A program made the position numbers and the translations under genes. Shown in pieces: positions 2,603 to 16,498 of a stretch of 34,397 nt of DNA. Source of the DNA: Methanobacteriota archaeon (GTDB lineage: Archaea > Halobacteriota > Methanomicrobia > Methanomicrobiales > Methanomicrobiaceae); NCBI GenBank assembly GCA_016841485.1, contig JAENZA010000003.1, positions 60,779 through 95,175 on the forward strand, in the 5' to 3' direction. Below the pieces are notes generated by a model, which made no database searches, was not told where the DNA came from, and saw only the letters and a program-made list of their open reading frames with translations. Each line of letters opens with the position of its first letter. The first letter of the stretch is position 1.

Positions 2603-3207
2603 TCTTCGCACCTCCTGCGTGCACACATCTCCTTAGCGTATTCCACGAACCAGGCATGACACTGCCGGTGCGCATAATTTTCGGGAGGGAGAACCGACTC
2701 GAAAAGGGATTTCAGCTCTTCTCCCCGTTCATCTATCCCCGCGCATGCACAGATGCGGTGGGTGTATGCATCGATGACGAATGAAGGGCGCAAAAATCCA
2801 TAACAGAGCATACTGTCGGCCGTCTCCGGACCGACCCCCTTGATTCCAAGGAGAAATCCACGCAACATTCCGGTCTCCATCTCCTCAAGGGCATCGATCC
2901 CGCCCGCCTGCTGTACAGAGGAGGCAAAGGCCTTCAGGCGCTGCGTTTTCATCCTGAAAAATCCCGTACACCGGATTGCCTCTTCGATATCCGCATCGGG
3001 CGCCGCCACGAGTCCTTCGAGAGAACAGATATCTCTGTCCCTCAGGTGTTCAAGGGCTTTTTCCACATTCTCCCAGCGTGTCTGCTGGGTAAGGACTGCC
3101 CCAATCATCACTTCTTCGGGGCATCCGGGCCACCATGCGATTTCCCCGTACCGGCGTTCAAGGTCATCGATAATGCCCTTCGCCTTTCGTACAGATAACG
3201 ATGCCAT
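2575..3207 (-). CDS. Endonuclease III family DNA glycosylase, MagIII-like
   Basis: A 210-residue HhH-GPD base-excision repair protein read from ATG 3207; a TTG at 3240 would overlap the thioredoxin gene. The helix-hairpin-helix LLGIKGVGPETAD is followed by the conserved catalytic Asp in VIDAYTHRI. The lysine that gives EndoIII its AP-lyase activity (GRKTAN in E. coli Nth) is Glu here (GPETAD). That is the pattern of monofunctional 3-methyladenine glycosylase MagIII of Helicobacter, which has a similar GVGKESAD. The C-terminal iron-sulphur loop is incomplete: CARRRCEEC is present, but the spacing is short and the last cysteine is missing. The likely role is removal of alkylated bases without strand cleavage. 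It lies 16 bp downstream of the thioredoxin gene. Confidence 0.75.
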   Translation of the reverse strand: MASLSVRKAKGIIDDLERRYGEIAWWPGCPEEVMIGAVLTQQTRWENVEKALEHLRDRDICSLEGLVAAPDADIEEAIRCTGFFRMKTQRLKAFASSVQQAGGIDALEEMETGMLRGFLLGIKGVGPETADSMLCYGFLRPSFVIDAYTHRICACAGIDERGEELKSLFESVLPPENYAHRQCHAWFVEYAKEMCARRRCEECRIRNLNE

Positions 3208-9262: not shown

Positions 9263-9685
9263 ATGAGTTCATACGTTCTTTCCATTGATTCCGGTCCTGA
9301 GGATATGGCGGGCTTTGCCATGTGCATTCATGAACTGGTAAACAGGCTGCCGATAACAGCCAGATCACTGAATAAAAAGGGAGTCAGGATCGAAGAAGGC
9401 CGTGTTGTGGATGCGGATTATACCGGGCCTGTTCTCGAGGCGGCAATGCAACAGGACCAGACGTTAAAAAATGTTCCTGAAGCCGGGGCGTACAAGGGAA
9501 TTCCGGTCATTGTCGCACCCCTGCACGGTTCGGAAGGAGAGGTGATCGGTGCAATCGGCCTCGTGGATATCACCGGTATCTTTGACCTTGGAACACTGAT
9601 GGAGCATCAGTCAATGATTATGAAACAGGTCTGCGGCAAGGATCCATGCCCTCTGCCGACCGAACTCATCGATGCAAAAAAGTGA
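9263..9685 (+). CDS. DUF2111 family methanogen protein
   Basis: A 140-residue protein resembling DUF2111, a family known mainly from methanogens. I chose ATG 9263 because gaggt lies 7 bp upstream. Motifs seen are MAGFAMCIHELVNRLPITAR, GVRIEEGRVVDADYTGPVLE, GIPVIVAPLHGSEGEVIGAIGLVDITG and a C-terminal CGKDPCPLP with two cysteines. The central IPVIVAPLHGSEGEVIGAIGLV is what a PAS/GAF-like small-molecule sensor strand-helix looks like, but no ligand is known. Its TGA stop overlaps the birA start (TGATG), which suggests coupled translation. Function is unknown; a sensory role is inference. Confidence 0.7.
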   Translation: MSSYVLSIDSGPEDMAGFAMCIHELVNRLPITARSLNKKGVRIEEGRVVDADYTGPVLEAAMQQDQTLKNVPEAGAYKGIPVIVAPLHGSEGEVIGAIGLVDITGIFDLGTLMEHQSMIMKQVCGKDPCPLPTELIDAKK

Positions 9686-10671
9686 TGAACATGATCGAGG
9701 CAGCATTCAGGGTACTGAAAATTCTTGAAGAATCTACGGCCCCCATTTCGGGGGAGGAGATCAGCGAACAACTGGAGATCAGCAGGTCTGCTGTATGGAA
9801 GCATGTACAGGAGCTGCGTACCTACGGGTACGACATCGCCGCTTCACGCACAGAGGGGTATGAACTGGTAGCATCCCCTGACCGCCTGCTCCCGTATGAA
9901 ATTAAAAAACACCTGAAAACCTCTGTGATAGGGCGTTCTATCGATTATCATGACAGTGTCCCTTCAACCATAGGTGTCGCAAAGGAACTCTGCAGAAAAA
10001 AAGATCTCTCTGAGCTGCATGGGACGGTGGTAATCGCAGAAGAACAGTCGGGTGGCGTTGGCCGTCTCGGCCGTGCATGGTATTCCCCACGGGGAGGGAT
10101 CTGGAGTACCATCATCCTTCGCCCGGATATCCCAATAGATCATGTCTTTATGGTGACCATGGCGGCTTCCATTGCCATAGCTAGAACCATACGGAAATTC
10201 TGCGGGGCTGGTGCACTCATTAAATGGCCAAATGACATCTACATCGGCAACGAGAAGATCGCAGGTGTTCTCCAGGAAATATCGGCAGAGGCGGAGACGG
10301 TGAATTACTGCCTGCTCAGCATCGGGATCGATGCCAACATCTCACAGGACCAGCTCCCGACAGGCGTGAAGACCCCCATCACCACCCTCTCCATGGCATG
10401 CGGCGCGCCTGTCGACCGTGCACGGTTCCTTGCACAGCTGCTCAAAGAATTCGAGACAAGGTACCGGGAGATCGAATCCGGCGAATATCTCACCATCACC
10501 CGCGAATGGAAGAGTCTGTCAATCACCCTCGACAAGAGAGTTAAGATAACGACTCCCCGGAAGGCCTTCGAAGGGGAGGCAATCGACATCGATGAATACG
10601 GTGCGCTCATTGTACGCAAAGACAACGGCAAAATTGAACGGGTTTTTTCAGGGGACTGCTCCCCGGCCTGA
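9685..10671 (+). CDS. birA: Bifunctional biotin-protein ligase / biotin operon repressor BirA
   Basis: A 328-residue two-function BirA, read from ATG 9685. Residues 3-60 are a winged helix-turn-helix: ISGEEISEQLEISRSAVWKHVQEL. Residues 75-260 are the ligase domain with EEQSGGVGRLGRAW for biotinyl-AMP, the KWPNDIYI lysine loop, and GVLQE. Residues 270-325 are the C-terminal SH3-like domain with GEAIDIDEYGALIVR. The first arginine of the canonical GRGRxGR motif is Val, but the Arg equivalent to E. coli Arg118 is kept. It should biotinylate the PycB carrier domain and, through the HTH, bind the inverted repeat in front of bioY. An HTH-bearing BirA is characteristic of autoregulated systems. Confidence 0.94.
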   Translation: MNMIEAAFRVLKILEESTAPISGEEISEQLEISRSAVWKHVQELRTYGYDIAASRTEGYELVASPDRLLPYEIKKHLKTSVIGRSIDYHDSVPSTIGVAKELCRKKDLSELHGTVVIAEEQSGGVGRLGRAWYSPRGGIWSTIILRPDIPIDHVFMVTMAASIAIARTIRKFCGAGALIKWPNDIYIGNEKIAGVLQEISAEAETVNYCLLSIGIDANISQDQLPTGVKTPITTLSMACGAPVDRARFLAQLLKEFETRYREIESGEYLTITREWKSLSITLDKRVKITTPRKAFEGEAIDIDEYGALIVRKDNGKIERVFSGDCSPA

Positions 10672-10672
10672 G

Positions 10673-10680
10673 TAATTTTT
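10673..10680 (+). promoter_or_regulatory. TATA-like element of the bioY operon
   Basis: The A/T-only stretch taattttt begins just after the birA stop codon. A start site about 26 bp downstream would be near 10702, inside the BirA-type operator, leaving a leader of about 12 nt. Confidence 0.4.
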
Positions 10681-10683
10681 TCC

Positions 10684-10714
10684 TGTCAACCGTCAATGAT
10701 ATAGGAGGTTGACA
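10684..10714. promoter_or_regulatory. BirA-type operator (8-15-8 inverted repeat) at bioY
   Basis: The half-sites tgtcaacc (10684-10691) and ggttgaca (10707-10714) are perfect reverse complements separated by 15 bp. The arrangement closely resembles the known BirA box, TTGTAAACC and GGTTTACAA with a 14-15 bp spacer. The right half-site covers part of the ribosome binding site aggaggt (10703-10709) and the first base of the bioY ATG, and the repeat spans the predicted transcription start. A bound dimer could therefore block initiation. The same repeat could also form an RNA hairpin hiding the ribosome binding site. Confidence 0.75.
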
Positions 10715-11223
10715 TGTACGGAAATGAAAAAAAAAGTCAGCTTGTCGCCCTCACAGCCACCTTTGTGGCACTGTTCACCGTAGGAGCATGGATCTCCATC
10801 CCTCTCCCCCCGGTACCGCTGACACTCCAGACATTTTTTGTCCTTCTTGCCAGCGTTATTATGAAGCGGTATGCGGTTATCCCGGCCGTCCTGTACCTGG
10901 TTCTGGGGGCACTGAATGTCCCCGTCTTTCATAATGCACTCGCAGGTATCGGTGTCATACTCGGGCCGACCGGCGGATTTCTTATCGGATTTATTCCTGC
11001 GGCACTGATTGCAGGTCTCGCTTACGAACAAAAGGAACGGATCATCCGCATCACGGGTCTTATCGCCGCCACGGTCGCCATATACGTCTTCGGGATATCC
11101 TGGCTTTCATTCTCGACGGGTATCAGTCTTGCACAGGCAGTGCTGATAGGTGTCATCCCGTTCCTTGCGGGAGACGCCCTGAAGGGAATCGCGGTCTACT
11201 ATATCGGGGAACGTATCGAATGA
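10714..11223 (+). CDS. bioY: Biotin transporter substrate-binding subunit BioY
   Basis: A 169-residue integral membrane S-component of an energy-coupling-factor transporter. It matches the BioY family: an N-terminal helix with LVALTATFVALFTVGAW, then IPLPPVPLTLQTFFVLLAS (the biotin-binding signature), YLVLGALNVPVFH, and the GPTGGFLIGF motif with conserved glycines, with about six transmembrane segments in all. It captures biotin outside the cell and delivers it through the ECF module encoded by the next three genes. The start has an ideal aggaggt 5 bp upstream. The stop overlaps the next start (ATGA). Regulation is probably by BirA at 10684-10714. Confidence 0.95.
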   Translation: MYGNEKKSQLVALTATFVALFTVGAWISIPLPPVPLTLQTFFVLLASVIMKRYAVIPAVLYLVLGALNVPVFHNALAGIGVILGPTGGFLIGFIPAALIAGLAYEQKERIIRITGLIAATVAIYVFGISWLSFSTGISLAQAVLIGVIPFLAGDALKGIAVYYIGERIE

Positions 11224-11912
11224 TTGTGTGCAGCGACCTTGCATTCCGCAGTGTTGCCATCCCTGATCTCTGCATCCCGTCGGGACATACCTGTGTCATT
11301 GGCCCTAACGGGAGTGGAAAATCAACTCTCCTCTCCCTTTTTGCGGGAATCGAGACACCCGAGCAGGGCCGGATATGCATCGATGAGACGACGCCCCGCA
11401 AAACGGATGTGGGATGGGTCGGTGAATTTCCGGAGGACAACCTCATATTCAGGACCGTGCATGACGAAATTGCATCCGCACTGCGGTTTCGTCATCTTCC
11501 CCACGAGGAACTTGAGCCAAGAGTCGAGCAGGCACTCAGGGACATTGACCGGGTAGATCTCAAAAATGCCCGGTGCAAAGAACTTTCCGGCGGTGAAAAG
11601 GCACTCGTTGCCCTGGCAGCTGCCATTGCCGTCCGTCCTAAGGTTCTTGTTCTGGATGAAATCGACTCCCATCTTGACCGTGCGACGGCCGAGCATGTTC
11701 AGCGAATACTCCCGTCATTCTCCTGTGCGCATATCCTCCAGTCGACACAGAACATGGATACCGCTTCCCATGCGGATCATCTGATCTACCTGGAAGAGGG
11801 AAAGGTCCGCCATTTCGGATCACCGGAGGACATATTTTCGGACCTTGAAGATACTCAGTTCTATCCAACACTCTGGAGGTTTGCGTCATGCATCTCGCAC
11901 TTGAAGAGGTAA
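11220..11912 (+). CDS. ECF transporter ATPase subunit 1 with altered Q-loop and H-loop
   Basis: A 230-residue ABC ATPase of the energy-coupling-factor type. Walker A is GPNGSGKST, the signature is LSGGEKALV and Walker B is VLVLDEIDSHLD with the catalytic Glu. Two switch residues deviate: the Q-loop reads VGEFPEDN, with Glu where Gln is usual, and the H-loop reads STQNMD, with Gln in place of the switch His. Its own nucleotide site is therefore likely degenerate, whereas its signature can still serve the partner ATPase. It is tightly packed: ATGA overlap with bioY and a 25-bp overlap with the second ATPase gene. It should energise biotin uptake. Confidence 0.88.
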   Translation: MIVCSDLAFRSVAIPDLCIPSGHTCVIGPNGSGKSTLLSLFAGIETPEQGRICIDETTPRKTDVGWVGEFPEDNLIFRTVHDEIASALRFRHLPHEELEPRVEQALRDIDRVDLKNARCKELSGGEKALVALAAAIAVRPKVLVLDEIDSHLDRATAEHVQRILPSFSCAHILQSTQNMDTASHADHLIYLEEGKVRHFGSPEDIFSDLEDTQFYPTLWRFASCISHLKR

Positions 11913-12586
11913 TCCTTTCGAGGAAAAACTGGAGCCTCTCGGCACATGCCACTTTTTGTGAAGGGATTCACCTGATCACCGGCAGGGTCGGAAGCGGAAA
12001 GAGCACTCTTGCACAGGCAATCGCCGGACTCACAGAACCGTCTTCCGGGAAGATCGTGTTGCATGGAATTCACAGACACACCCTCTCGATGCAGTTTCCC
12101 GAATACCATACCACCGGCCATCTTGTTCGTGACGAAATCCGTTCGTGGGGCCTGGAACCAGGGAAAATATGTATGGAGGCCGGACTAATGGGGAGAGAAT
12201 ATGAGCGTTCATTTGCCCTTTCGCGCGGTGAACTCAAACGCCTCCACATGAGCTGCATACTTGCGGGAACGAGAGATCTTCTCATCCTTGACGAGCCCTT
12301 TTCAACCCTTGATCCCGAATGGAAACATCGTATGTGCCGCAAAATTCTTTCCCACCATCCTCCGGTCACCCTAATCTTCACACACGAACAGGCAGTCCTG
12401 CCAAGGGTCGACTACCTCTGGGAACTGCGGGAAGGAAGCCTTCATGCGCTTGGACCGGTTCCGGAGGCAATTCCTTCATGGCAGGGAGCCCCCCGGTACA
12501 TCGAAGAAGTGCTCAAATGCGGGGTTGTCCCGGACAATATCACCATCGAAGATACGGAGGAAGCCCTGTGCAGGATGCACGATTGA
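11888..12586 (+). CDS. ECF transporter ATPase subunit 2 with altered signature motif
   Basis: A 232-residue ABC ATPase paired with the preceding one. Walker A is GRVGSGKST, the Q-loop is MQFPEYH, Walker B is LLILDEPFSTLD and the H-loop is IFTHEQ, all normal. The signature is LSRGELKR, with Arg in place of the second Gly of the usual LSGGE/Q. In a heterodimer this signature would face the nucleotide site of ATPase 1, which is itself altered. The pair would thus have one good site (this Walker set plus the other signature) and one weak site. The gene overlaps both neighbours, which implies a translationally coupled module. Confidence 0.87.
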   Translation: MHLALEEVILSRKNWSLSAHATFCEGIHLITGRVGSGKSTLAQAIAGLTEPSSGKIVLHGIHRHTLSMQFPEYHTTGHLVRDEIRSWGLEPGKICMEAGLMGREYERSFALSRGELKRLHMSCILAGTRDLLILDEPFSTLDPEWKHRMCRKILSHHPPVTLIFTHEQAVLPRVDYLWELREGSLHALGPVPEAIPSWQGAPRYIEEVLKCGVVPDNITIEDTEEALCRMHD

Positions 12587-13209
12587 GGATCGCCAGCACG
12601 TTTCTTCTCTCGTGTACCGCTTTTTCTTCGGTAGCCGGTGCGGCCCTGGTTTTTGTGTGGTGGACGATCTTTGCACGGGACAGGCGTAACCTCCCCGGCC
12701 GAAGGACCGCGGTCATCATCTTCGGTACGCTCGCGCTCGTCGCCGTCTTCACCTCCTTTGTCGGGGGAGACGGAACAGGATATTTCCTTCGTCTCTCGGT
12801 GGTCATGCTTATTGCCTTCTGGGCCTTCGGCGGCGGGGCGGGAGAGGAGCTCTTTGATGTGGCCGTCTGGGCCTTCGGAAACCGGTTGGGTTTTGACATT
12901 GGTCTTACCGCAGATATGGCGCTCGGGTCACTCGGCCGCATCGAGGATGACATCATACTCACCCGGCATGCCATCGCCCTGAAGGGGACAACCGGGCCGG
13001 TGAGATCGCTTGTTCCCCTGGGTGTTTCGGTCGTTCTGGTACAGATACGGAGGGCCGGCTGCCAGGCAAAGACCCTTGCCGTCAGAGGGTATCATTCGGG
13101 AGGTACCTATGTACCCCGTTTCAACCGGGGAAAAGAGGATTATGTGGCTTTTTTCTGCTCAATTCTAATTATTTTGGCTCTTTTAGGGTCTTTCGTGAGT
13201 TATTTATAG
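12568..13209 (+). CDS. ECF transporter transmembrane subunit EcfT-like (BioN-like)
   Basis: A 213-residue membrane protein read from GTG 12568, preceded by ggagg with 7-bp spacing and overlapping the second ATPase by 19 bp. A TTG at 12583 is a weaker alternative. Hydrophobic helices lie at about residues 9-31, 44-62, 70-90 and 193-213. The region between them has the coupling-helix features of EcfT, including RRAGCQAKTLAVRGYHSGG with a VRG variant of the usual ARG motif. EcfT couples ATP hydrolysis to toppling of the S-component BioY. The sequence is diverged, so the call leans on position between ECF ATPases and pyruvate carboxylase as well as on the motif. Confidence 0.75.
   Translation: MQDARLRIASTFLLSCTAFSSVAGAALVFVWWTIFARDRRNLPGRRTAVIIFGTLALVAVFTSFVGGDGTGYFLRLSVVMLIAFWAFGGGAGEELFDVAVWAFGNRLGFDIGLTADMALGSLGRIEDDIILTRHAIALKGTTGPVRSLVPLGVSVVLVQIRRAGCQAKTLAVRGYHSGGTYVPRFNRGKEDYVAFFCSILIILALLGSFVSYL
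13200..13208 (+). promoter_or_regulatory. TATA box upstream of pycB
   Basis: The sequence ttatttata overlaps the last codons of the EcfT-like gene. The predicted start site is near 13232, about 40 nt before the pycB ATG, so pycBA could be transcribed separately from the biotin uptake genes. Confidence 0.5.
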
Positions 13210-13271: not shown

Positions 13272-15008
13272 ATGAGTTTTAATCCTGTAAAGATCACAGA
13301 CACGACCCTGAGGGATGCACATCAGTCTCTCATAGCAACCAGGCTCAGGACCGAAGATATGCTTGAGCTGGCTCATGAGATTGATAGCATCGGGTTTTTT
13401 TCCGTTGAGGGATGGGGTGGTGCCACTTTTGACAGTGCTATCCGGTTCCTCAATGATGACCCGTGGCAGCGCCTCCGTGACCTCCACGAGGCCCTCCCCC
13501 ACACCCCGATACAGATGCTTCTGAGGGGACAGAACCTGGTTGGCTACCGCCACTACCCCGACGATGTAGTTGAAAAATTTGTTGAGGCCGCCAGCAGAAA
13601 CGGCGTTGGTGTATTCCGCGTCTTCGACGCTCTCAACGATCTCAGAAATATGCAGAAATCCATGGAGACCGTCAGGGACATCGGTGCACATCTTCAGGGC
13701 ACAATATGCTATACCACAAGCCCAGTGCACTCTACCGAGGGATTCATCGAGATGGCACGGGACCTCTATGCAATGGAGTGTGATTCCATCTGCATCAAGG
13801 ATATGGCAGGCCTTATCATGCCGGAAGCGACACGGGACCTGATCACCGGAATCAAAGAGGAAATAGACATTCCGATAGATTTACACTCCCATTCCACCTC
13901 CGGCATCTCCCCGATGAGCTACCAGACGGCGATCGAGGCGGGAGTTGATATTCTCGATACCGCAATGTCCCCGTTTGCAATGGGTACTTCACAGCCCCCG
14001 ACGGAAAGTATTGTTGCAAGCCTTGCCGGGACGTCCCGGGATACCGGCATCGACCTTCTGAAACTCAGAAAGGTCAGGAATATCTGCCTGAGAATCAGGA
14101 CAAAATACGAAACCCTGGTAAACCCCATCTCCGAGCGTGTGGACAGCGACGTGCTCATCTACCAGCTTCCGGGAGGAATGATCTCCAATCTGGTTTCCCA
14201 GCTCAAGGAACAGGATGCACTGAACCGTCTCGAAGAGGTTCACCAGGAGATTCCCCGTGTTCGGGAGGATCTCGGATACCCGCCGCTGGTCACCCCAACC
14301 TCACAGATTGTCGGCACCCAGGCAGTCCTCAACGTCCTGATGGACGGTGAACGCTATTCCAATGTCACGAAGGAAGTCCGCGACTATGTCCGCGGGATGT
14401 ACGGCAAACCCCCGGCACCCATCTCGGATGATATCCGCACAAAGATCATCGATGGCGAGGAGCCTTTTACGGGAAGACCGGCAGATCTCCTGGAACCTGC
14501 CTATGAAAAGATGAAGAAGGAAGCGGAAAAAGAGGGACTTGTTCATAAGGAAGAGGACGTCCTGACCTACATCCTCTATCCAGCAATCGCTCCTTCATTC
14601 CTCCGTGGTGAACGCAAACCCGAACTCATCCCCAAAAAGGCCGACACGTCAGCACAGGCAACCGGCGGGATGCCCGCAACAATGGAGGTCGAGGTAGATG
14701 GCGAAATATTTGCCGTCAGAATCCTTTCGGTTGATGGAGGAGCCATTGAGCAGACCGGCGCCATGGGAGCAAAACAAATCCCGCGCACCGCAATCGAAGG
14801 TGGTGTAAAGAGTAACATTCAGGGAATGGTTCTCAAAATTGAAACCAGTATCGGCGCCCAGGTAACAGCGGGAGATACGCTCATCGTCCTCGAAGCAATG
14901 AAGATGGAAAACCCCATCAAGGCTCCTGCCGGCGGAAAGGTTACCGACATTTTCGTTGATGTGGGAGATTCTGTCCAGAACGGCGATGTGCTTCTGGTGA
15001 TTGAATGA
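13272..15008 (+). CDS. pycB: Pyruvate carboxylase subunit B (carboxyltransferase and biotin carrier)
   Basis: A 578-residue subunit of the archaeal two-subunit pyruvate carboxylase. Residues 5-270 form the carboxyltransferase TIM barrel with ITDTTLRDAHQSL (metal Asp), CIKDMAGL (the metal-bound modified Lys) and IDLHSHSTSG (metal His). Residues 290-480 are the conserved PYC/OADA domain. The C-terminus (about 505-578) is a biotinyl domain with EAMKMENP; the biotinylated lysine is residue 544. It transfers carboxyl from biotin to pyruvate, giving oxaloacetate for the incomplete reductive TCA pathway. gaaggtgg precedes the ATG, and the stop overlaps the pycA start (ATGA). Oxaloacetate decarboxylase alpha subunits look similar, but the neighbouring carboxylase gene settles the call. 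Confidence 0.95.
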   Translation: MSFNPVKITDTTLRDAHQSLIATRLRTEDMLELAHEIDSIGFFSVEGWGGATFDSAIRFLNDDPWQRLRDLHEALPHTPIQMLLRGQNLVGYRHYPDDVVEKFVEAASRNGVGVFRVFDALNDLRNMQKSMETVRDIGAHLQGTICYTTSPVHSTEGFIEMARDLYAMECDSICIKDMAGLIMPEATRDLITGIKEEIDIPIDLHSHSTSGISPMSYQTAIEAGVDILDTAMSPFAMGTSQPPTESIVASLAGTSRDTGIDLLKLRKVRNICLRIRTKYETLVNPISERVDSDVLIYQLPGGMISNLVSQLKEQDALNRLEEVHQEIPRVREDLGYPPLVTPTSQIVGTQAVLNVLMDGERYSNVTKEVRDYVRGMYGKPPAPISDDIRTKIIDGEEPFTGRPADLLEPAYEKMKKEAEKEGLVHKEEDVLTYILYPAIAPSFLRGERKPELIPKKADTSAQATGGMPATMEVEVDGEIFAVRILSVDGGAIEQTGAMGAKQIPRTAIEGGVKSNIQGMVLKIETSIGAQVTAGDTLIVLEAMKMENPIKAPAGGKVTDIFVDVGDSVQNGDVLLVIE

Positions 15009-16498
15009 CCAATTTCGAAAAGGTACTCATAGCCAACCGCGGCGAAATTGCCATCCGCGTTATGCGGGCATGCAGGGAGATGAATATCGGAACAGTTGCC
15101 ATCTTTTCGGAACCGGACAAAAACTCGCTGCATGTAAAGTACGCCGATGAAGCCTTTCTGGTCGGAGAGGCGCATCCGTCAAAAAGCTACCTGAATATGC
15201 ACCGCATCATTGATATCGCCCATATGTGCGGTGCCGAGGCCATTCACCCAGGATATGGATTTCTAGCGGAGAATGCAACTTTTGCAAAGCTCTGCGAGGA
15301 TGAGGGGATTACGTTCATCGGTCCTTCATGGAAGACCATCGAGACGATGGGATCCAAGCTTGCTTCCAAGCACATGATGGAGAGCGCCGGCGTCCCGGTC
15401 CTGCCGTATACCCCTGACGGGGTTACATCCCTGGACGAGGCCAAGGCGATCGCAGAAGAGATCGGGTACCCGGTCATCGTCAAGGCCTCTGCGGGAGGCG
15501 GCGGCATCGGCATGCAGATTGTCGAAACCGAAGCTGAGCTCCAGGAGGCAATTGAGAAGGGGATGCGGATTGCGGAATCTGCATTCGGTGATTCAACGGT
15601 CTTTATCGAGAAGTATCTGGTCAAGCCGCGGCATATCGAGTTTCAGATCCTTGCCGATCAACAGGGCAACAGGATTCATCTGTATGATCGCGAGTGTTCC
15701 ATTCAGCGGAGGCACCAGAAACTTGTCGAGGAGGCCCCCTGTCCAATCATGACTGAGGAACTCCGTGAGCGCATGGCAGCATCGGCGCTGAAGGTCGCAG
15801 AGGTATCCGGGTACTACAACGCCGGTACGGTCGAGTTCCTCTATACAGACGGGGACTATTATTTCATGGAGATGAACACCCGCCTGCAGGTGGAACATAC
15901 GGTCACCGAGATGGTGACCGGTATCGACCTGGTTCGCCAGCAGCTGCGGATTGCTGTCGGTAAAAAGATCCCGTTCGCCCAGGAGGATATCCGCCTCAAC
16001 GGCCATGCCATAGAGTGCCGAATAAATGCGGAAGACCCCCTGAATAACTTCCAGGCCGACCCCGGCAAGATTGTCAGGTACCGCTCCCCTGGCGGACCGG
16101 GCATCCGCGTCGACTCGGGCATCCACATGGGATACACGATTCCCCCGATGTACGACTCCATGATATCAAAACTCTGCGGATGGGGTATCGACCGCAGGGA
16201 ATCCATCGAACGGATGCGGCGTGCAATCTTTGAATACGTGATCATCGGCGTGCGGACGACGCTTCCGCTGCATCACGCCATCATGAACAACCGGCACTTC
16301 ATCGAAGGGAACACGCATACCCATTTCCTGCAGGAAGAGCATGTCAAGGCGAACCTCGCACGCTATCTGCATGAGGAAGAGACACGTATGCAGACACTCG
16401 CACATTCCCTGCGACATGGCAAGGAGGCCGCAGCAATCGCAACAGCAGTTAATGTCTATATCGCGGCGCAGAAACAGCAGCAGAATGAGAACCAGTAA
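15005..16498 (+). CDS. pycA: Pyruvate carboxylase subunit A (biotin carboxylase)
   Basis: A 497-residue ATP-grasp biotin carboxylase that carboxylates the PycB biotin using ATP and bicarbonate. The N-terminal KVLIANRGEIAIRVMRAC is followed by HPGYGFLAEN, the glycine-rich ATP loop KASAGGGGIGM, EKYLVKPRHIEFQIL, DRECSIQRRHQKLVEEAP, and the metal/bicarbonate segment EMNTRLQVEHTVTE. The last ~60 residues are a polar tail, slightly longer than in bacterial AccC. Together with pycB it forms the anaplerotic enzyme, the main known biotin enzyme of methanogens. The nearby bioY and birA genes support this role. Confidence 0.96.
   Translation: MTNFEKVLIANRGEIAIRVMRACREMNIGTVAIFSEPDKNSLHVKYADEAFLVGEAHPSKSYLNMHRIIDIAHMCGAEAIHPGYGFLAENATFAKLCEDEGITFIGPSWKTIETMGSKLASKHMMESAGVPVLPYTPDGVTSLDEAKAIAEEIGYPVIVKASAGGGGIGMQIVETEAELQEAIEKGMRIAESAFGDSTVFIEKYLVKPRHIEFQILADQQGNRIHLYDRECSIQRRHQKLVEEAPCPIMTEELRERMAASALKVAEVSGYYNAGTVEFLYTDGDYYFMEMNTRLQVEHTVTEMVTGIDLVRQQLRIAVGKKIPFAQEDIRLNGHAIECRINAEDPLNNFQADPGKIVRYRSPGGPGIRVDSGIHMGYTIPPMYDSMISKLCGWGIDRRESIERMRRAIFEYVIIGVRTTLPLHHAIMNNRHFIEGNTHTHFLQEEHVKANLARYLHEEETRMQTLAHSLRHGKEAAAIATAVNVYIAAQKQQQNENQ

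Follow-up and report, generated by a model that had tools for sequence, protein, structure and literature searches.

Rodionov, Mironov and Gelfand (2002; Genome Res 12:1507) reportedly predicted a BirA regulon in archaea, and biotin-dependent carboxylases are said to be discussed there as possible archaeal targets; to our knowledge, that work includes neither PEP carboxylase nor an order-wide series of joint losses. The BirA signal is reportedly conserved in archaea and accompanied by an HTH, and the locus described here is alike in both respects.

Bacterial BirA, the Group II biotin protein ligase, is a winged HTH joined to a ligase, and it acts on biotin genes through palindromic 9-N14/15-9 operators, such as the B. 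subtilis bioW, yuiG and yhfU sites; the archaeal system analyzed below resembles it in each of these features. Unlike in bacteria, however, the archaeal site lies in an archaeal core promoter, the box is usually fused to the start codon of bioY, there is no biotin synthesis operon to control, and PEP carboxylase is a second target in relatives. The published BirA operator consensus is TTGTAAACC-[N14/15]-GGTTTACAA (PMC545781), and B. subtilis BirA requires both biotin and ATP to bind its operators (PMC4016012). In C. glutamicum, biotin supply decides whether PYC or the biotin-free PEPC feeds oxaloacetate (PMC11457263). This shift in the PYC/PEPC balance is like the one proposed here, but the abstract there explains it by the amount of biotin-bound PYC and mentions no BirA operator before PEPC. 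For Methanosarcina barkeri, a putative bifunctional bpl/birA has been reported along with the pyc genes (Mukhopadhyay 2001, cited in PMC3199775), so that there, as in our case, a BirA gene of the E. coli type is grouped with the genes of pyruvate carboxylase in an archaeon; neither an operator nor a PEP carboxylase link appears in the title of that study. The operator class and the link between BirA and bioY are already known. A short literature search, with the text of the 2002 prediction outside its scope, recognised no paper linking BirA to the control of PEP carboxylase, and both PEP carboxylase as a BirA target and the series of helix-operator co-losses appear to be new.

The window, i.e., the whole stretch of 34,397 nucleotides that was analyzed, comes from a member of the family Methanomicrobiaceae in the order Methanomicrobiales; its relevant features are given in Table 1. 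An initial annotation had described a perfect 8-15-8 inverted repeat covering the ribosome site and the first base of bioY, preceded by a birA gene encoding an N-terminal HTH. Direct reading of the sequence bore out each of these points; for the transcription start also predicted there, it offers only the AT-rich stretch that adjoins the left arm. The repeat TGTCAACC-N15-GGTTGACA occupies positions 10684-10714 and ends on the A of the bioY ATG (10714-10716), and its right arm is overlapped by GGAGG. The GGAGG of the window is not kept as such in most relatives. The birA gene, which ends 42 bp upstream of bioY, matches PF08279 (HTH_11) with 54.7 bits (cut-off 25) in a region that aligns with the S. 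aureus BirA HTH, followed by the ligase domains PF03099 and PF02237 (TIGR00121, 187.7 bits, cut-off 83.1). Its product matches the S. aureus and E. coli BirA structures, and the repressor-domain model TIGR00122 scores 58 bits, below its curated cut-off of 70. In almost all order-level loci whose flanks were long enough for inspection, the DUF2111 gene adjoins birA, and it is possibly tied to biotin ligation.

Table 1. Positions of the operator, promoter elements and genes in the window
Feature	Position	Strand	Remark
DUF2111 gene	9263..9685	+	PF09884; birA ATG overlaps its stop codon
birA, biotin-protein ligase with N-terminal winged HTH	9685..10671	+	ATG at 9685 or 9691
AT-rich stretch abutting the left arm upstream	about 10673..10681	+	candidate weak TATA element
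Operator left arm TGTCAACC	10684..10691	+	extended 9-mer CTGTCAACC starts at 10683
Operator spacer, 15 nt	10692..10706	.	in relatives, sequence varies, length 14 or 15
SD-like GGAGG	10704..10708	+	overlaps spacer and right arm (two bases of the arm)
Operator right arm GGTTGACA	10707..10714	+	shares its final base, A, with the bioY start codon
bioY, S component of biotin ECF transporter	10714..11223	+	PF02632, 128 bits
ECF transporter ATPase 1	11220..11912	+	PF00005; best NCBIfam match ECF_ATPase_1, below its cut-off
ECF transporter ATPase 2	11888..12586	+	profile matches
Putative EcfT, transmembrane coupling protein	12583..13209	+	from position and conservation only
pycB TATA-like element	13199..13209	+	TTTTTATA-type; separate promoter without BirA box
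pycB, pyruvate carboxylase subunit B with biotin domain	13272..15008	+	sole Biotin_lipoyl match found in the genome
pycA, biotin carboxylase subunit	15005..16498	+	profile matches

The putative EcfT has no match in Pfam or NCBIfam and is kept between ATPase 2 and pycB across the order. The TTTTTATA-type element before pycB is found at the same place in eight further loci (nine in all); since this conserved element has no box, pycB need not follow bioY. A conserved AGGCTT-like stretch also lies downstream of it.

Against the published consensus, the site extended to CTGTCAACC-N15-GGTTGACAT matches at 14 of 18 positions, its arms corresponding to the C5/G28 variant, the same one that PMC545781 gives for BirA sites of delta-proteobacteria. 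The match to TTGTCAACC-N14/15-GGTTGACAA, the consensus of the order, is 16/18, and the runner-up site in the 34 kb window scores 12. The six positions preceding the left arm have an A+T fraction of 0.71-0.91 across 69 sites. Together with the adjoining HTH-bearing BirA and the presence of a box before bioY in 27 of the 28 family genomes, the match to the consensus upholds the original reading as an archaeal BirA operator, and sequence evidence thus supports 10684-10714 as a BirA-type operator for an archaeal biotin uptake operon of the ECF type. We consider it very probable that the bifunctional BirA encoded next to the inverted repeat uses it as its operator and represses the biotin uptake operon through it.

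The search of related genomes for the repeat before bioY, proposed at the outset, showed that all 28 family genomes have bioY, that the one exception to the bioY box (G012) is degraded, and that the box recurs across Methanomicrobiales with birA as its neighbour. Whether the birA-bioY gap in relatives is as short as 39 bases or as long as several hundred, the box keeps its place at bioY. In an alignment of 69 N14 sites, the left-arm positions G3, T4, A6, A7 and C8 are invariant (69/69), as are the right-arm positions G25, T26, A29 and C30, and the spacer is variable and AT-rich. Lineage variants are symmetric, with TCGTCAACC..GGTTGACGA in family f3 and others, TTGTTAACC..GGTTAACAA in genus g19, and the classical arms TTGTAAACC..GGTTTACAA in G036; both arms change together, a pattern indicating that the DNA is contacted by a symmetric protein dimer. 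Outside the order, in G036 and several further genomes, the box stands before a bioY that has no birA match beside it. Additionally, in one locus outside the order (L094, 3001-3032), a classical TTGTAAACC box abuts the bioY start codon and birA lies approximately 1.4 kb away, and in three Methanoculleus-group loci (L086, L112 and L113, near 3001-3073) bioY is preceded by a tandem pair of BirA boxes, 40 bp from each other.

The initial annotation had also proposed that bound BirA could block access of the ribosome. The overlap of box and start codon is indeed common in the order, with an offset of -1 or -2 in 53 of 87 aligned sites, although these offsets are approximate because the orientation of some palindromic sites is uncertain. 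Nevertheless, the arrangement is not general: in G024 and G025 the box ends approximately 18 bases ahead of the bioY ATG, so ribosome occlusion is not required, and the box is likewise clear of the start codon before PEP carboxylase.

To relate the box to its presumed reader, the BirA recognition helix was scored by its core [ST]R.A[VI]WK, and 140 genomes were scorable for both helix and box. Both were present in 115 and neither in 20; the helix without a good box was found in four and the box alone in one (G008, whose birA is in pieces in the assembly), giving agreement in 135 of the 140. Boxes are absent from f6 (which includes a Methanofollis), g28 (which includes Methanospirillum stamsii), f5, and G012 of the window's own family, and the losses of helix and box include Methanofollis, Methanospirillum and one Methanogenium-like species. 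BirA of the boxless lineages retains its ligase, and the core of the recognition helix is gone, leaving remnants such as PEAEIKDS in G012, IPGSSVAHH in f6, IPRSRVTEA in f5, and LSKSAVWK or ISSSAVWK in g28. A sister pair illustrates the change: G060, which keeps the R of the core, has intact boxes, and G030, in which R is replaced by Q, has two boxes resembling those of G060 (one spacer is identical over GTCTCATTATGGGAGG) with decayed arms. Loss of the repeat in close relatives that keep birA-bioY had been named in advance as evidence against the operator. Taken literally, such losses occur in Methanofollis, Methanospirillum and G012, but the boxless relatives are those with a decayed recognition helix, and the operator claim is strengthened by them.

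Independent events were counted as pairs on a BirA tree built from the ligase part with the helix left out. Helix and box changed jointly in five of seven pairs and never in opposite directions (p = 0.06); the sign test stays above 0.05 because the independent events are few. Genomes that weigh against the link are G264 and G502, with an intact helix and no box beside bioY; G508, with an intact helix and a half-site only; and Ca. Methanoculleus thermohydrogenotrophicum (G451), in which the helix reads R.VVWK (RSVVWK), the bioY box is decayed and PEP carboxylase has no box.

A search of the window's family that allowed up to three mismatches revealed second sites in other genomes, and the gene next to each of the close ones is the archaeal-type PEP carboxylase (PF14010 and TIGR02751). 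Among relatives with this gene, the box precedes it in 31 of 32 genomes with an intact helix versus 0 of 18 without. Within the window's family, all 13 genomes owning the gene have the box, which ends 43-64 bases ahead of the MSTQHPDN codon. The Methanoculleus group (f2) has it in 13 of 14 genomes, G451 being the exception, and genus g14 of f3 in 5 of 5. No PEP carboxylase box was found in the Methanofollis-group (0/11) and Methanospirillum-group (0/7) genomes checked, nor within approximately 390 bp upstream of the matched PEP carboxylase start in those of 80 named loci that come from outside Methanomicrobiales, among them Altiarchaea, Methanobacteriaceae and bacteria. The 28 family genomes contain 30 N14 sites with no more than two mismatches, and every one of them precedes either bioY (20) or PEP carboxylase (10); no further clear BirA target was seen at this threshold, and the family regulon therefore appears two-membered. 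The window's genus has no PEP carboxylase gene, so the regulon there would be the bioY operon alone, consistent with the single site seen. The initial proposal of a regulon limited to the bioY operon is accordingly retained for the window's genome and abandoned for relatives with a boxed PEP carboxylase. Its statement that birA and pycB lack a copy still stands, as no BirA box was found before either gene.

One Biotin_lipoyl match above the cut-off is found in 27 of the 28 family genomes, and in the window's genome it corresponds to pycB. No biotin synthase (bioB) passes its cut-off in the family genomes. With PycB as the sole biotin-domain protein found in the family above the cut-off and no bioB, biotin seems, as far as gene content indicates, to be derived from uptake alone and to serve pyruvate carboxylase alone.

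The sequences themselves show the operator, how it is conserved, how it goes with the BirA recognition helix, which two genes it precedes and, within the family, no other clear target. For the ligand, the dimer, repression and physiology, we infer the following scheme. When biotin is plentiful, BirA charged with biotinyl-5'-AMP would dimerise and bind the two half sites, which lie 23-24 bp apart (approximately two DNA turns). With the candidate TATA region on one side and the start codon on the other, the bound dimer would halt transcription of the bioY-ATPase-ATPase-EcfT operon; this position of the box suggests repression rather than activation. As the TATA element of bioY is weak, bioY may also be read through from birA. 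Repression would be lifted when biotin is scarce or when unbiotinylated pyruvate carboxylase consumes the charged BirA. In relatives owning PEP carboxylase, where the operator would sit in the promoter of that gene, a biotin-free route to oxaloacetate would be switched on when pyruvate carboxylase, the sole biotin enzyme, cannot be loaded. By repressing both bioY and PEP carboxylase, BirA would couple the use of the biotin-dependent or the biotin-free route to the supply of the vitamin. BirA of Methanomicrobiales is probably such a switch of anaplerosis, in which one type of operator serves biotin import and the archaeal PEP carboxylase and which has decayed several times, helix and operators together.

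Other explanations of the repeat can be considered. That it arose by chance and has no function would be suggested by its length, as approximately 2.6 perfect 8-bp inverted repeats with a spacer of 13-17 are expected per window and three are present. The non-random part of the operator is its sequence, not the length of the repeat. This particular repeat, with a spacer of 13-17, occurs once in the 2.37-Mb genome. On its consensus match, position and order-wide conservation, a chance origin was rejected and can be practically dismissed. A function in the mRNA, as a hairpin hiding the ribosome site, a riboswitch or an attenuator, is conceivable because the arms can pair into an 8-bp stem, the right one covering part of the SD-like sequence and of the start codon. 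However, the sequence folds no better than its shuffled versions (z -0.68) and has no Rfam match, on which grounds the hairpin or riboswitch was rejected. Additionally, the identity of the arms is kept rather than mere pairing, as the five invariant left-arm positions indicate, the spacer length is fixed at 14-15, the box does not reach the start codon in G024/G025 or at PEP carboxylase, and its loss follows a protein helix; we regard an RNA element as very improbable.

The box might instead belong to a regulator other than BirA that accompanies bioY, given that BirA binding is predicted and that the BirA helix persists in some genomes lacking a box. The joint retention or loss of box and helix in 135/140 genomes, the fit to the published BirA consensus, and the adjoining birA across the order make this improbable. 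Somewhat less improbable, yet still unlikely, is that BirA activates or only weakly tunes its targets, so that the PEP carboxylase site serves a purpose other than a low-biotin bypass. The sign of the regulation is not readable from sequence, but the boxes of both genes fall in the probable core promoter, beside the start codon or within a short leader, where archaeal regulators usually repress, and the BirA operators studied so far repress.

With its operator, the window offers a good example of a signal in DNA that bacteria and archaea have in common. Through the wider result, the old prediction that BirA acts as a repressor in archaea becomes open to direct tests on a built-in series of natural mutants. 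It also suggests that one transcription switch decides whether methanogens make oxaloacetate by a vitamin-dependent or a vitamin-free route, a point relevant to the dependence of biotin-requiring methanogens on vitamin suppliers.

Further observations concern the PEP carboxylase genes themselves. In G173 (C8:23827-25278), the gene is broken over several frames, has no box and is likely a pseudogene. G463 has two PEP carboxylase copies (L193 and L194) with a BirA box upstream of each, one of them approximately 310 bases ahead of the MSTQHPDN codon. Finally, four loci of Dehalococcoidia/Chloroflexi MAGs (L206, L207, L214 and L215) encode a PEP carboxylase 66-67% identical to the Methanoculleus enzyme, possibly reflecting gene transfer between methanogens and bacteria or a binning error.
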